Below, in pieces: positions 9,294 to 14,696 of a stretch of 34,731 bases of DNA. The notes under the pieces were generated by a model. That model was not told where the DNA came from. It was given only the letters and a program-made list of their open reading frames with translations, and did not search any database. Within the stretch, counting starts at the first letter, position 1. Every line of letters starts with the position of its first letter. The translations under genes were made by a program, and so were the position numbers. The DNA comes from a virus. The stretch spans positions 1-34,731 of the IMG/VR virus record IMGVR_UViG_3300042309_001781. The stretch is one strand, 5' to 3'.

Positions 9294-9731
9294 TTACACC
9301 TTCAGAGTTGACTTGAGCATCCAGCCGTGCTTGGCGTGGACGTCGATCCTGTCCTGCAGGAAGTTGGCGAGTCCGTAGACTTTCTCCTTCTCTGCCTCGA
9401 GGAACGCGGACTTGAGAGACTCCATCACCTTGTCGTTGTCTTCCTTGAGCCTGGCGACCATCGACATGGCCGGCGGGATCGAGGTCTCGTCCTTGACGGT
9501 TGCGAGTTGACCGAAGCGCGTGAAAGAGCCCGGCGCGTACGCGTCGAGCGTCCTGATCTGCTCGGCGATGACGTCGACGGCTGCCCAGAGCTCACCGTAG
9601 ATGTCGCCGAAGAAGGCGTGCAGCTCGTTGAAGTTCGGGCCGGTCACGTTCCAGTGGAACATGTGTGCTTTGAGGTACATGGCGAACGTGTCGGCCAGTA
9701 CTACCTTCATCTTCTCTTCTAGGACTTCCAT
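9294..9731 (-). CDS. dps: Dps-like ferritin-family protein
   Basis: Dps proteins form 12-subunit shells that oxidise and store iron and protect DNA from peroxide. The ferroxidase ligands are in register with E. coli Dps: His26 (FHWNVTG), His38 (ELHAFFG), Asp53 and Glu57 (VDVIAEQIRTL). The acidic residue corresponding to E. coli Asp67 falls on Gly42, with Asp43 adjacent. The 145-residue length fits one four-helix bundle without a long basic tail. A clear AGAGGA site precedes the ATG. Location inside the late virion block suggests late synthesis and perhaps packaging with the particle; that is inference. Confidence 0.88.
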   Translation of the reverse strand: MEVLEEKMKVVLADTFAMYLKAHMFHWNVTGPNFNELHAFFGDIYGELWAAVDVIAEQIRTLDAYAPGSFTRFGQLATVKDETSIPPAMSMVARLKEDNDKVMESLKSAFLEAEKEKVYGLANFLQDRIDVHAKHGWMLKSTLKV

Positions 9732-9754: not shown

Positions 9755-10864
9755 TTACCAGGCCCTGCAGGACCAGTACTTCGCCTTGGTCTTGGGTCCC
9801 GGATCGACGTCGCAGCCGTGACGGGCACGGAACGACTTCCTACGGGCCGGGTTGCTCTTCTTGATCGTCATGTTCGGGTCGCCGAAGTTCACCTTCACGA
9901 CGTTGCCCTTCTCGTTCTTGACGTAGACGGAGCGCTTCTTCGGCCCGTTCGGCGTGAGGAACGGCTTGTTGAGCTTGACTTTGCGGCCGCCGTGCTCGGC
10001 CTCTTCCTTGACGCAGTCGTTGACCATCTTTCCGCTCTTGCCGCGCTTCATGCCGACCTTCTTGTATCCGGCCCAGCACGACTTGCCCGCCTCGAAGATG
10101 TAGCCCTCTTCTTCCGGCTCACCCCAGTCCTCGTACTCTTCGTTCTCGACTACGTAGAAAACTTCCTCGGTGAACCCCAGCTCCAGAGACTCGATGAACT
10201 CAGAGAAACTCTGGACGTGCTGGATCTCGGTCTCTTCGCCGAACTCGTGGCCCGCTACCCTCTTCATCTGCTTGTTGAACTCCGGCTGTGACGGCTTTTC
10301 TTTGTAGAGCTTGATGGAGATCTCGGACCTGTCCTTGCCCTTGATCCTCCACTTGTATCCCTTTTCTTTGTGCTCGGGCTTCGACGTCTTCACGACGCGC
10401 CTCGAGTACCCGGCCTCCCAGGACTCGGCCTCGCGGAGGTCCTTATCGGCGCCGTGGTAGGTTCCCTTGCCCTTCGTGACGTACGAGTTGACGCGGGCCA
10501 TACCCCACTGCTGAGGAGTCGTGCCGGGACGGTGACCCGTCCTCCAGGCCGCGACGCCCCTCCTGTAGACGGCCCTCAGCGTGCTCAGCGGCATGCCAGA
10601 AGCCTTGGCCTTCTTAGCCAGTGCGGTGCTGGCCTCTTCGTCGATCTGGATATTCTCTACGTCCATTTCCATCTCTTCTCCAAACTTCTTGTGGTAGGCC
10701 CTGGTGTGCTTGGACACCTTGGTCACGGCAGTCGCGTCTCCCGGCGCCGGCTCGTAGGCCGCGGGATCCTTGGTGTCCATCTTGGACGTCCTGGCCCAGT
10801 GGGCCTCGCGGGCTCTCTTGGTTGCAGCGGACAGTCCAGAGTGGTATGCCTTTTTCTCTTTCAT
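9755..10864 (-). CDS. Multidomain late protein with several phage-specific modules
   Basis: Three parts are visible in 369 residues. Residues about 78-145 (ALAKKAKASGMPLSTLRAVYRRGVAAW..., TPQQWGMARVNSYV) resemble a small domain of unknown function common in phages (DUF5872-like). Residues about 222-285 contain SFSEFIESLEL followed by CWAGYKKVGMKRGKSGKMVNDCV, a module often found in T4-like phage proteins. The C-terminus (NPARRKSFRARHGC...AKYWSCRAW) matches a Cys/His-containing tail seen in cyanophage virion proteins. The SFSEFIES piece recalls a capsid-targeting peptide but is internal. A virion or internal-head role is likely. Confidence 0.7.
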   Translation of the reverse strand: MKEKKAYHSGLSAATKRAREAHWARTSKMDTKDPAAYEPAPGDATAVTKVSKHTRAYHKKFGEEMEMDVENIQIDEEASTALAKKAKASGMPLSTLRAVYRRGVAAWRTGHRPGTTPQQWGMARVNSYVTKGKGTYHGADKDLREAESWEAGYSRRVVKTSKPEHKEKGYKWRIKGKDRSEISIKLYKEKPSQPEFNKQMKRVAGHEFGEETEIQHVQSFSEFIESLELGFTEEVFYVVENEEYEDWGEPEEEGYIFEAGKSCWAGYKKVGMKRGKSGKMVNDCVKEEAEHGGRKVKLNKPFLTPNGPKKRSVYVKNEKGNVVKVNFGDPNMTIKKSNPARRKSFRARHGCDVDPGPKTKAKYWSCRAW

Positions 10865-11172: not shown

Positions 11173-12654
11173 TTACCTCTTTACCTTGATGGCACCGGAC
11201 TCAAGTGCGCCCTTGATCTTTTTCATGTGTCTAGCCGCTTCCTGCTTGCTGAACATCGGTCCCAGGTGTCTATGGAAGGTCTCGACGTCGCCCTTCGCCG
11301 CCGCATTTCTCATGTTGGTACCGGACATGCCGTGCGACCTGTCGGTGTCCTCTGGATGATGGATCTGGATGTCGTCGAATTTGCGGCCCTCCATCTCCTT
11401 GATCTTACCGGCCTCGAGCGACTTCTTCAGCCCGTGGGCGAAGTCCGCGCGGTCGTGACCGACCAGGATGTGGAGGACCTTGCGTCCACCCTCTGGCAGA
11501 GAGTCGTGGGCGGCGCGGACTGTCTCACCGGCAGACTTTACTACGTGAACTGACGGCTTGCTCTTACCGCCCCACTGACGGGACAGGATGTCGCCGCGCT
11601 CCTTGGGGGTGTACACGTCCGACTTTGAAGAGATACCCACGTGCTTCGTTCCCGGCAGCTTCGACAGCGATCCGCCGAGGTCCTTGGCGTGTCCCATGTG
11701 TGAGATCGGCGAGAAGCCGGTGAGCGGGACTACCGACGCGTGGTGCTCTGGCTCGGCCTCTTCGTTCACGGACCGCTGGACACCCAGCGTCTTTCCCAGA
11801 TGAGCGATGGCTTTGCTGTGATCTGCGCCCTTCATCTTCTCGACTGAGCTGACGAACTTGTCGTAGATCTGCTGGTGTCTCTCGGCCGGTACGTGCTTCT
11901 TTATGAGCTGGGCGATGCCGTGGAACGAGTGAACCTTACTGTGATCGGCCTTTGGGCCGAACAGTGCCGACGATACCTCGTGCGGCTCCGTGATACCCGG
12001 ATCGTCCTTACCGGAGTCGCGCGGACGGAGACCGTGAGTGATGGAGAACTTGTGAGTGTCGCCGCCGACCGCGTTGAGCAGCACCTTGTGGTGCATTCCC
12101 TTGATGCCGAGCTTGCGGTCTTCCCAGTCGGCGCCGTGGAGGAATCGCTCTCCCTCGGTCGGTTCGCCGGTGTTCTTGTCGGTGTGAACGCCCTCGAAGT
12201 CGAACTGGTGGTTCTCACCGTTCTCGTGCTTCATGACGGCCGATACCTCGTTGCCGTGCTTCTTGGTGCCAATGACTATGTACTTGCCGATCTTCCTTCC
12301 AGGGAAGAGGAACTTACCGAGGTTGTTCTTGTGCTCATGCGAGACCTGGGCGTCGACGTCACCCACGGTGCTGATGTGATTGGCGAACTCGTTGTGGGGG
12401 ATTCCCTTGGTGTCCATCAGGGACGTCGTAGATCCGGCGTAGGTCCTGCGGTTCATGAGACCGGACTTTTCGTGCCCGAACAGGTGCTCACCCGTCTCCT
12501 TGTGATACTGGTCGTGCATGTCGGACAGGGCGCCGTGGATGTCGTCCACTCGTCCCTGTCTGTTCCTGACGGTGATCGGGAACGGGTTAGCGGAACCTCC
12601 CTCGACCTTGATGTTGCCACCCTCGGCCAAGAACTCTGAGAACGTCTTAATCAT
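11173..12654 (-). CDS. Capsid-targeted double nucleotidyltransferase
   Basis: The N-terminus MIKTFSEFLAE-GG matches the T4 capsid-targeting peptide (MKTYQEFIAE), with a gp21-type Leu-x-Glu cleavage site after Glu11. Residues about 90-210 form a Pol-beta-type nucleotidyltransferase, with GDVDAQV (Asp99, Asp101), FDFEGV (Asp152) and the HGADWED...KGMHHKVL region. Residues about 309-480 form a second, HxGH-type nucleotidyltransferase: FSPISHMGH (His319, His322) and SGTNMRNAA (positions 444-452) in place of the ISSTxIR motif. Substrates are unknown; the second domain is of the cytidylyl/NMN-adenylyl class. The gene overlaps the upstream ligase-like gene by eight bases. Confidence 0.78.
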   Translation of the reverse strand: MIKTFSEFLAEGGNIKVEGGSANPFPITVRNRQGRVDDIHGALSDMHDQYHKETGEHLFGHEKSGLMNRRTYAGSTTSLMDTKGIPHNEFANHISTVGDVDAQVSHEHKNNLGKFLFPGRKIGKYIVIGTKKHGNEVSAVMKHENGENHQFDFEGVHTDKNTGEPTEGERFLHGADWEDRKLGIKGMHHKVLLNAVGGDTHKFSITHGLRPRDSGKDDPGITEPHEVSSALFGPKADHSKVHSFHGIAQLIKKHVPAERHQQIYDKFVSSVEKMKGADHSKAIAHLGKTLGVQRSVNEEAEPEHHASVVPLTGFSPISHMGHAKDLGGSLSKLPGTKHVGISSKSDVYTPKERGDILSRQWGGKSKPSVHVVKSAGETVRAAHDSLPEGGRKVLHILVGHDRADFAHGLKKSLEAGKIKEMEGRKFDDIQIHHPEDTDRSHGMSGTNMRNAAAKGDVETFHRHLGPMFSKQEAARHMKKIKGALESGAIKVKR

Positions 12655-13615
12655 TCGGTAGTGTCCTCTTCTTGAACTGGGCCTGCGCTTCCTTGTCAGC
12701 CTTGAACTTGCGGAAGTTGTCGGAGGTCACCTTGAACCTCGGGGCCTCGGAACCCTCTGGCGGGTGGATGACCAGACCCTCGGATCCGCTTCCCCACTTC
12801 GGCGAGATGTTCAGAGACCTGACGTGTCTGTCGACCTTGTCGGATACACGCTTCTTGATCTCGTCAAGCTTCGCCTGCTCGGCCATCTTGGCCTCTCTGT
12901 TCTTCGGGACGGTGCGGGTGTTGAGAAGGTTGCGATCGATCTTCTTCATCATCTCGCGCTCGTCTGATACGTCCACTGCGCTCGGCGCGGTCTCGATCTT
13001 GTCGTCGTCGAAGTTGATCTCCTTGCCGGCGCCGATCTTCTTCAGGTGTTCGACGTCGTGAAACTTGTTCTCTGGCAGCTTGGTGTGGACGACGATCTTA
13101 CCGACCGATCCAATGTGCGACGGGTCGTACGACGTACCCACGAACTTGACCTCGCCCTTCTTCTCCTCGGACGGACGGCCGTACGGGGTATAGAACAGCT
13201 CACCGCGAATCTTGGCGTCGCCGCCGGTCTTCTCTGCGTGAGCCTTGAGGTACTGCATCAGAGTCTTGTTCTTCATCAGCGTCGCATGAGCGTGGTCGAA
13301 CATGTTAGAGCCTGTGAGGTCCAGCGGCTTCCCGGTCTCCTGCGACCTGCGAGTGGCACGGGCGGCGTAGTCTCCGGGTTGCCTCATCTTCTCGTTACCC
13401 GATCCCGACGACTGGGTGTAGAACCCGTCCTTGTCATAGCCCATGATGTGAGTGCTGCCGTCTGTCTTCTCTGTCTTGTGCGTCATGTCGATACGACCGC
13501 CCTTGACGAGGTTGTGAAAGTCGTCGTGGTGCATGGTCAGGATGTGAGGGAGACCCTGACGGATTCCCTCCGTGAGCAGCGCGGACTCATTAAGAAACTG
13601 AGAAAAGCTCAACAT
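12647..13615 (-). CDS. Capsid-targeted ligase-like nucleotidyltransferase
   Basis: The N-terminus MLSFSQFLNE-SALLTE-G resembles a capsid-targeting peptide and offers two Leu-x-Glu sites (after Glu10 and Glu16). The body carries the covalent nucleotidyltransferase motifs of RNA/DNA ligases: KTDG with Lys50 (motif I), RGELFY with Glu139 (III), SEGLVIHPP with Glu279 (IV) and FKVTSDNFRK with Lys295 and Lys303 (V). Whether it seals nucleic acid or only transfers AMP or GMP cannot be told, and no OB-fold is obvious after motif V. Long helical charged segments separate motifs III and IV. Its ATG overlaps the stop of the nuclease-like gene (TAATG). Confidence 0.75.
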   Translation of the reverse strand: MLSFSQFLNESALLTEGIRQGLPHILTMHHDDFHNLVKGGRIDMTHKTEKTDGSTHIMGYDKDGFYTQSSGSGNEKMRQPGDYAARATRRSQETGKPLDLTGSNMFDHAHATLMKNKTLMQYLKAHAEKTGGDAKIRGELFYTPYGRPSEEKKGEVKFVGTSYDPSHIGSVGKIVVHTKLPENKFHDVEHLKKIGAGKEINFDDDKIETAPSAVDVSDEREMMKKIDRNLLNTRTVPKNREAKMAEQAKLDEIKKRVSDKVDRHVRSLNISPKWGSGSEGLVIHPPEGSEAPRFKVTSDNFRKFKADKEAQAQFKKRTLPND

Positions 13616-14574
13616 TATTCTTCGACTCCCTTTTTCATAGAGCCGTACTTTGCATTCACCTGCAGACTGGAGAACGATCCGTGAGTGGGTCTGTGCTCGA
13701 TGGCGGCGACGTGCTTTCCTTCGTGGTCGTACACGTGCATCACGTTATTCTTGACCTTCGTCGAGAAGCTCTTGGCGTTTTTCACGGCGTGCAGGTGCTC
13801 GATCTTATCGTGCGGAATCGCCTTGGCGCCCTTGTTAGAAGCCGATACGTAGTCGTACGCCATGTCAGGCTTACCCTTGAGGAGCCTGTGCAGGTGCTCT
13901 TTCTGAGTCTTGAGATCTGCGCTTTGGAAAGCAGAAGAGTGATGGTTGGCGACGTCGTTCTGCGCAGCCTGGTTCTTCTTTACGATCTCGGGCTTGTCCC
14001 TGACGGCCTTGATCTCTTTTCCGGACATGTTACCTAGACCGGCTCTGTCTTTATGTGCCTTCCACTTTCCCATCAGATTTGTACCGAGGTGCGAGTCGAT
14101 GGTTCCGGCACCGTTGTTCGAAGCGGTACCTGATCTGGCCTTGAGAGAGGCCCCGTGGAGGAAATTTGACTTTCCCTTCTTGCCCTTGACCACTAGGTCG
14201 TGCGGATTGTCGGACCTCGATACCTCGTGGCCGATGTGCTCGTCTATTCCTGAGTGGGTGTGATGGACTTCGTGAATCTTGGAGGCGTCCATTCCATGAT
14301 TATTTGCCAGACTCTCGATGTAGGCGTGGCCGGAGTCCTGTGCCGCTTTATGTGCCTTGGCGGCTTTATCGGCTGGAAGAGAAGACATCAGTTCCCTGTG
14401 TCTGGCCCTCATGACCTTTATCTTCTTTTGATACGACGCGTCTTTATTTGACTTGGCGGCCGTATTGTCGTGAACGTGAAGGACCGTACCGAGCTCATAT
14501 GCCTCGCCGTACGCCTTGTTGTGCTCGTTGGCTTCATTTAGTATCGACTGTACAAACTGAGAAAAAGAGAACAT
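13615..14574 (-). CDS. Capsid-targeted nuclease-like protein, PD-(D/E)XK type suspected
   Basis: The N-terminus MFSFSQFVQSILNE-A resembles the other two capsid-targeting peptides, with a Leu-x-Glu site after Glu14. A possible PD-(D/E)XK core is seen as a helix Glu near residues 24-27, then DNPHDLVVKG (Asp126), then FLHGASLKAR with Ser143-x-Lys145. Ser in place of the second acid occurs in some restriction-type nucleases. The rest is His/Lys-rich and helical. It is the first gene after the late promoters, so it should be strongly expressed late. The nuclease call is motif-based and moderate; the internal head protein inference rests on the N-terminus. Confidence 0.6.
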   Translation of the reverse strand: MFSFSQFVQSILNEANEHNKAYGEAYELGTVLHVHDNTAAKSNKDASYQKKIKVMRARHRELMSSLPADKAAKAHKAAQDSGHAYIESLANNHGMDASKIHEVHHTHSGIDEHIGHEVSRSDNPHDLVVKGKKGKSNFLHGASLKARSGTASNNGAGTIDSHLGTNLMGKWKAHKDRAGLGNMSGKEIKAVRDKPEIVKKNQAAQNDVANHHSSAFQSADLKTQKEHLHRLLKGKPDMAYDYVSASNKGAKAIPHDKIEHLHAVKNAKSFSTKVKNNVMHVYDHEGKHVAAIEHRPTHGSFSSLQVNAKYGSMKKGVEE

Positions 14575-14601: not shown

Positions 14602-14609
14602 CTATTTAT
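14602..14609 (-). promoter_or_regulatory. T4-type late promoter (GATAAATA)
   Basis: The minus strand reads GATAAATA, one base from the T4 late consensus TATAAATA, 28 bases upstream of the first capsid-targeted gene. T4 late promoters need only this element, recognised by the phage late sigma factor gp55. The predicted transcript would begin about 21 bases before the ATG. Confidence 0.65.
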
Positions 14610-14667
14610 CGAATCTTAGGGTGGCCACTTGCCGAGGGCCGCGGTGATCCATCTACCAATACAGAAA

Positions 14668-14688: not shown

Positions 14689-14696
14689 TATTTATA
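14689..14696 (-). promoter_or_regulatory. T4-type late promoter, exact consensus TATAAATA
   Basis: The minus strand carries an exact TATAAATA, directly abutting the terminator hairpin. With the usual six-base offset, transcription would begin inside the left arm of that hairpin, so late RNA could not fold it completely. It is a second late promoter for the nuclease, ligase and nucleotidyltransferase genes. Confidence 0.6.

Follow-up and report, generated by a model that had tools for sequence, protein, structure and literature searches.

The question raised by IMG/VR virus record IMGVR_UViG_3300042309_001781, a 34.7-kb stretch of DNA from an uncultured T4-related phage that was analyzed at its full length and is called the window here, is whether three consecutive minus-strand genes encode enzymes that travel inside the phage head and enter the next host together with the DNA. 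The genes follow one another in the order C, B, A with overlapping starts and stops. An original prediction, made from the sequence alone, had described three adjacent late genes for a PD-(D/E)XK-like nuclease (C), a KTDG ligase-like nucleotidyltransferase (B) and a protein with two nucleotidyltransferase domains (A), each beginning with a capsid-targeting sequence (CTS) like those of the T4 internal proteins. The three products are very probably packaged and processed in this phage, a conclusion drawn from the peptide, the cleavage site, the promoters and the protease found in relatives.

Targeting peptides, cleavage sites and virion proteins

In the CTS of T4 internal protein IPIII, residues 4 and 7 direct targeting and residues 8 and 10 serve processing, and the gp21 protease cleaves after L/I-x-E (PMC9026906). 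The peptide of B stands in exact IPIII register (F4, F7, L8, E10), as do those of most relatives, and A fits this register if shifted by one residue. The C peptide has F4 and F7, but its LNE lies at residues 12-14. Five relatives of 150-199 kb were scanned with a strict pattern whose positions were fixed by the T4 mutagenesis, M..[FY]..[FY][LIVMF].E; it matched 17 of 1233 gene starts, taken from mechanical open reading frame (ORF) calls, compared to 5 of 3996 internal methionines (p = 1.5e-7). Other peptide patterns, tried before the strict one, gave a smaller yet clear excess at gene starts. Relatives of A and B with a peptide of their own occur on dozens of contigs, and, among their distinct prefixes, 30 of 31 for A and 36 of 40 for B include [LI]xE.

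Of the 31 distinct peptides on A relatives, 30 have [L/I]xE directly ahead of a Gly-Gly-Asn that is invariant in all 34 aligned A sequences and that follows the predicted cleavage glutamate wherever a peptide is present. The Pol-beta proteins of Vibrio phage pv27 and Xanthomonas phage X1 have no peptide and start with MGGN; cleavage between this glutamate and GGN would therefore yield the same mature N-terminus as removal of the initiator methionine from the peptide-less proteins. As pv27 and X1 lack the peptide, the enzyme set can evidently work without packaging, and other lineages have put it aboard.

Split and fused genes provide additional natural experiments. Relatives L037, L038, L051, L052 and L059 encode the Pol-beta and HxGH parts of A in two separate genes. 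Both halves carry their own peptide, the HxGH gene thus being a separate CTS-led gene, in L051, L052, L059 and L037 (GTG start), and the second gene in L038 starts MKSLRAFIYE, an imperfect match to the peptide. Where genes are fused (L036, L041, L046 and L062), the targeting residues have often decayed and the [L/I]xE at the junction is retained. In L036 (L036:8010-14618), B and both halves of A share one 2202-amino-acid polyprotein with a P-loop domain, an HExxH peptidase-like domain and several other segments, and the junction of B with A has an [L/I]xE. Versions of 1400-1460 amino acids in L054 (1459 amino acids) and L056 contain A plus more.

The ORFs are exactly as originally described, and their designation as late genes agrees with the late-promoter motifs upstream of C (Table 1) and with ATAAATA within 60 bases upstream in 11 of 18 related clusters, compared to 0.27 expected, at a spacing similar to that of GATAAATA. 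A gp21-family protease (PF03420) is encoded in a 178.7-kb relative (G001) and in 10 of 12 further related records, including those of S-CREM2, HTVC008M, X1, pv27 and CP220. Adjoining the protease in G001, at the position of a prohead core protein (G001:115678-115956), lies a gene that starts MKTFKEFLLTE.

A relative with a published virion proteome, obtained by mass spectrometry, allows the peptide to be compared with packaging itself. This is the Synechococcus phage S-CREM2 (PMC10665884 Table 3). The strict pattern, scanned over 197 coding sequences, was found in four proteins, gp6, gp14, gp136 and gp154, among them an S-adenosylmethionine hydrolase (gp6), an APH-like kinase (gp14) and an HxGH cytidylyltransferase (gp154). 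The proteome lists every one of these four as a virion protein (p = 0.0017). Permitting leucine at position 4 adds gp13, which is listed in virions, and gp175, which is not listed as detected. A looser pattern also matched proteins outside the listed virion set, and it was replaced by the strict T4-mutagenesis pattern because of these false hits. Two genes from gp154, gp156 matches NTP_transf_2 (Pol-beta) just above the cut-off and is also a listed virion protein. Separately, gp12 (L124:7704-10313), a virion protein annotated as Cas9-like, contains KPLRFASFMAE near residues 15-25, set back from its start.

These data bear on two other explanations. A chance resemblance, or a generally hydrophobic N-terminus, would fit a short motif, looser patterns that were devised after the data had been seen, and the non-virion matches of the loose pattern in S-CREM2. 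It is hardly credible in view of the enrichment of the T4-mutagenesis pattern at gene starts, the four out of four in S-CREM2 virions, and the cleavage glutamate that adjoins the invariant Gly-Gly-Asn of A; on the sequence evidence, the resemblance is not chance, and the T4-like peptide and Leu-x-Glu site proposed for all three proteins are borne out. Alternatively, the action of the enzymes could be confined to the cell that makes the phage or to particle assembly, as in DNA maturation or repair within the prohead, with the peptide binding the core and nothing delivered. The peptide-less pv27 and X1 homologues, which indicate that the enzymes can work unpackaged, are in line with this. We consider it unlikely, as the peptide is kept on the separate halves of A and the cleavage site on the fusions, and as peptide-bearing enzymes persist in the mature S-CREM2 virions listed in the proteome.

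Enzymatic domains of the three proteins

Both domains proposed for A are upheld. In an alignment of 34 sequences (24-66% identity), residues G12-G13-N14, G74, D99, D101 and D152 are invariant and S75 nearly so, conserving GS..DxD..D, and the Pol-beta domain matches phrog_19290 (E 2.7e-12). The HxGH domain matches the cytidyltransferase family phrog_3041 (E 4.8e-8) and phrog_395 (E 3.9e-5), with HMGH conserved in seven of seven aligned sequences and SGTxMR in all that reach that far. No Pfam match to A was convincing, and A was the only protein of the trio matched by PHROG. Judged from these motifs and profiles, the identity of the HxGH domain is strong and that of the Pol-beta domain is good.

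For B, motifs I (K50-T-D52-G53), III (E139), IV (E279-G280) and V (K295) are invariant and in order in 41 sequences, down to 23% identity. An AlphaFold model built with this alignment had a predicted local distance difference test score (pLDDT) of 89.8 and a predicted template modeling (TM) score of 0.84, with the peptide (residues 5-17) as its main disordered stretch; it replaced a poor earlier model from seven sequences (pLDDT 50). A Foldseek search with the model gave the RNA editing ligase TbREL1 (1xdn) as the top match in the PDB (E 7.7e-4), followed by Naegleria Rnl, T4 Rnl1, T4 Rnl2 and DNA ligases, and ligases or related capping enzymes made up nearly all of the 50 best PDB matches. 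Matches in a viral library included proteins named for a cytidyltransferase-like domain. The Pfam RNA_ligase family matched one close B member and the distant members L188-L190 below its curated cut-off. B itself gave no convincing Pfam or PHROG match and no tblastn match to named phages, and no homology beyond the motif was detected between B and DUF6267 or the KTDG protein of pv27; the KLDG protein of X1 matches B over its full length but weakly. Joint alignments of B with the Pol-beta domain of A, based on the natural fusions, were misaligned and were dropped. B thus resembles the RNA ligases TbREL1, Naegleria Rnl, T4 Rnl1 and T4 Rnl2 in its predicted core fold and in motifs I (KxDG), III, IV and V, but differs from them in having no detectable sequence match to solved structures, low TM-scores and no C-terminal substrate domain that could be identified. 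The ligase-like call originally made from KTDG is supported by the invariant motifs and the predicted fold, and the case that B belongs to the superfamily of ligase and capping covalent nucleotidyltransferases is strong.

C is the least certain call of the three. Its relative in L038 (L038:6877-8004, E 4.7e-45) retains the E, NPHD and SLK motif and has a peptide of its own, MLSFVQYILE. C has no Pfam or PHROG match, and tblastn against named phages found nothing. The homologue in L038/L100 has an N-terminal domain in common with CTS-led ExK-type proteins of L002, L027, L031, L101 and L102, which occupy the slot before B, as C does; related ExK-type genes without a peptide occur in L003, L004 and L005. 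Motif and gene slot favor the proposed PD-(D/E)XK assignment, the weakest of the domain calls, and C is best described, with moderate confidence, as a putative nuclease in a slot that appears consistently nuclease-like. Other genes in the slot upstream of B (L004:7708-8331, L003:4686-5663, L008:3015-3983) encode peptide-led HAD-like phosphatase and HExxH-like domains, separate or fused.

Table 1. Positions of the trio and associated features in the window, with junctions of fused genes in relatives (a slash marks the junction)
Feature	Position	Strand	Details
Gene C	13615-14574	(-)	319 amino acids; putative PD-(D/E)XK nuclease
CTS-like peptide of C, MFSFSQFVQSILNE	14533-14574	(-)	From sequence; predicted cleavage after residue 14
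Putative nuclease core of C	14140-14505	(-)	E24/E27, D126 (NPHDLVV), S143-L-K145; from alignment with L038/L100 and slot homologues
Gene B	12647-13615	(-)	322 amino acids; KTDG ligase-like covalent nucleotidyltransferase
CTS-like peptide of B, MLSFSQFLNE	13586-13615	(-)	SALLTE next; second Leu-x-Glu (LTE) at residues 14-16
Gene A	11173-12654	(-)	493 amino acids; two nucleotidyltransferase domains
CTS-like peptide of A, MIKTFSEFLAE	12622-12654	(-)	Predicted cleavage before Gly-Gly-Asn
Pol-beta-type domain of A	11770-12621	(-)	GGN at predicted mature N-terminus; G74-S75, D99-x-D101, D152
HxGH domain of A	11200-11745	(-)	HMGH, SGTxMR
T4-type late promoter TATAAATA	14689-14696	(-)	Just upstream of C, on C's strand
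Late-promoter-like GATAAATA	14603-14610	(-)	Motif starts 36 bases ahead of C start codon
Gene D, DUF5824 protein	9755-10864	(-)	Downstream of trio, same direction; PF19141, E 7e-22
Fusion junctions in relatives			L036 MSLLRE/GGN; L041 MFSLLNE/GGN; L046 IIME/GGN; L062 MPFGAFLAE before HxGH domain

Downstream of the trio, phrog_3041, the family that also matches the HxGH domain of A, matches gene D with its C-terminal end. D holds an internal CTS-like stretch, QSFSEFIESLE, and in L003 a related C-terminal domain (CWKGYTAVGMKMKNGRKVPNCV) begins a gene of its own directly after the peptide MKSFKGFISE. A Dps/ferritin-like protein (PF00210, phrog_3636) is encoded at 9294-9731 of the window, three genes downstream of A, and a similar-looking protein comes after the cluster in L004 and L008. 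No relatives of the trio were found in the bacterial genomes of the scanned genome collection.

Probable delivery and possible role

In the mechanism proposed here, C, B and A would be made late in infection of a T4-like phage, and the N-terminal peptide would bind each precursor to the prohead core, where a gp21-type protease would cut it after [L/I]-x-E. The freed proteins would remain in the head and be delivered to the next host along with the phage DNA. Such a cargo would comprise a nuclease, an enzyme of RNA-ligase type that adenylates a lysine, and a Pol-beta/HxGH nucleotidyltransferase, which would most likely act jointly on the ends of nucleic acids within the first minutes of an infection. 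Ejection of the trio and its activity in the infected cell are probable, if less firmly so than packaging.

Several observations weigh against this mechanism. The proposal that the trio is delivered as internal proteins is supported, as far as packaging goes, by the split and fused genes, the MGGN starts, the protease, the promoters and the S-CREM2 proteome, whereas a protease gene was not found in the window fragment. Some B relatives (L055, L151 and L188-L190) have no clear peptide, and gp156 is listed in S-CREM2 virions without a clear one, so the peptide is not the sole marker of such proteins. The S-CREM2 authors themselves state that proteins of this kind could be contaminants of CsCl-purified virions (PMC10665884); contamination is disfavored for the peptide-bearing proteins because they have the peptide in common. 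On the enzymatic side, C has a single diverged homologue (L038/L100), the Pol-beta domain of A has no Pfam match and no convincing sequence-profile match in the PDB, the sequence profile of B likewise gave no convincing match in the PDB, and the Foldseek TM-scores for B are low, at about 0.35.

As to what the delivered enzymes would do, one alternative is that the HxGH domain is a nicotinamide mononucleotide adenylyltransferase (NMNAT) and that the packet restores nicotinamide adenine dinucleotide (NAD) destroyed by host defenses. NMNAT- or cytidylyltransferase-like proteins are reported in the virions of cyanophages S-CREM2, S-SCSM1 and S-CBWM1 (PMC9602691, PMC10665884), and phage resynthesis of NAD is discussed in PMC9503650. 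However, an NAPRTase of NadV type was found in only two of ten genomes tested, and the partners of HxGH are Pol-beta, ligase-like and nuclease proteins rather than NAD enzymes. This role is improbable, and the NAD variant of the original prediction was not sustained.

A second alternative is that host proteins are nucleotidylated by the Pol-beta domain, perhaps also by HxGH, and that the ligase-like protein has nothing to do with joining RNA. T4 Alt sets a precedent as a packaged, protein-modifying ADP-ribosyltransferase that acts on host RNA polymerase (PMC9503650), and Pol-beta enzymes are candidate protein modifiers within injected polyvalent proteins (PMC5512222). In relative G006 (G006:138502-138810), a short peptide-led ORF continues DDYYYHGTSDANADEIMKHG and resembles an ADP-ribosyltransferase, as in packaged Alt, which would also fit protein modification. 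The accompanying nuclease and RNA-ligase fold point to nucleic acid instead, and modification of host proteins seems unlikely, although less so than a role in NAD metabolism.

The arrival of an RNA-ligase-type enzyme, two nucleotidyltransferases and a nuclease together with the DNA suggests nucleic-acid end processing at the start of infection, in the form of repair of host-cleaved RNA or of counter-defense. RNA end repair or counter-defense is the leading guess, and a tentative one, with the substrate surmised from the enzyme classes. We infer that the trio could act as the cut/activate/transfer pathway envisaged in the original prediction.

Conservation of the set and relation to known systems

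A and B are adjacent or fused in nearly all relatives that show both. A Pol-beta homologue and a KTDG-plus-HxGH fusion protein occur together in 15 Campylobacter and 6 Vibrio phage records, which represent few independent lineages, and X1 encodes Pol-beta, an unassigned 334-amino-acid protein, the KLDG protein and an HxGH protein in consecutive genes. In the window, the minus strand encodes a phage DNA polymerase, a UvsX-like recombinase and a DnaB-type helicase, with the trio further along in the same direction. HTVC008M has, after UvsX and the helicase, a nuclease-like protein (gp126), a KWDG DUF6267 protein (gp127), a P-loop protein (gp129) and an HxGH cytidyltransferase plus DUF5824 protein (gp130). 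The trio thus resembles the HTVC008M/cyanophage cassette in its place after UvsX and a DnaB-type helicase and in its functional classes, but in our comparison B and DUF6267 had only the KxDG motif in common.

In comparison with T4 IPI, IPII, IPIII and Alt, the trio has the same N-terminal peptide of 10-16 residues with matching residues 4, 7, 8 and 10, the L/I-x-E site, a late promoter (TATAAATA) and a gp21-family protease in relatives. IPI is a small restriction inhibitor. The cargo of the trio differs from the T4 internal proteins in consisting of a nuclease, a ligase fold, Pol-beta and HxGH, often as several genes in a row or fused. Delivery of internal proteins is already known, whereas an enzymatic cargo of nuclease, ligase and nucleotidyltransferases looks new.

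Like the cyanophage virion enzymes, A has HxGH, and the S-CREM2 version begins MKNFSSFLTE and lies two genes from a listed virion Pol-beta protein. The passages of the cyanophage reports consulted treat this virion HxGH enzyme as an NAD gene and make no mention of a targeting peptide. A differs from the cyanophage enzyme in having Pol-beta and HxGH in one protein, with ligase-like and nuclease genes next to it. A literature search, with most subscription journals outside its range, found no paper on DUF6267 and found "cyanophage" and "capsid targeting sequence" together only in a T4 review; within this literature, the link of the T4-type targeting peptide to cyanophage-type virion enzymes appears to be new. 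Polyvalent proteins of phages and conjugative elements are injected multi-enzyme proteins that include Pol-beta domains (PMC5512222). The large L036 and L054 fusions resemble them, but enzymes of the trio type mostly have a gene and a T4-type targeting peptide of their own.

The peptide would provide a readable N-terminal code for head-carried proteins in T4-like phages of uncultured bacteria and would explain the recurrence of cytidyltransferase/NMNAT-like and kinase-like enzymes in cyanophage virions. It yields a testable list of injected enzymes, a source that has earlier given counter-defense (IPI) and host-modifying (Alt) activities, and portable peptides drawn from more kinds of phage could serve for loading proteins into heads. 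More broadly, it is conceivable that aquatic T4-like phages preload a nucleic-acid repair or modification pathway through one portable peptide, sometimes adding a P-loop kinase and an HExxH peptidase and in some lineages as a polyprotein cut by the prohead protease, and that this pathway acts ahead of all phage gene expression.

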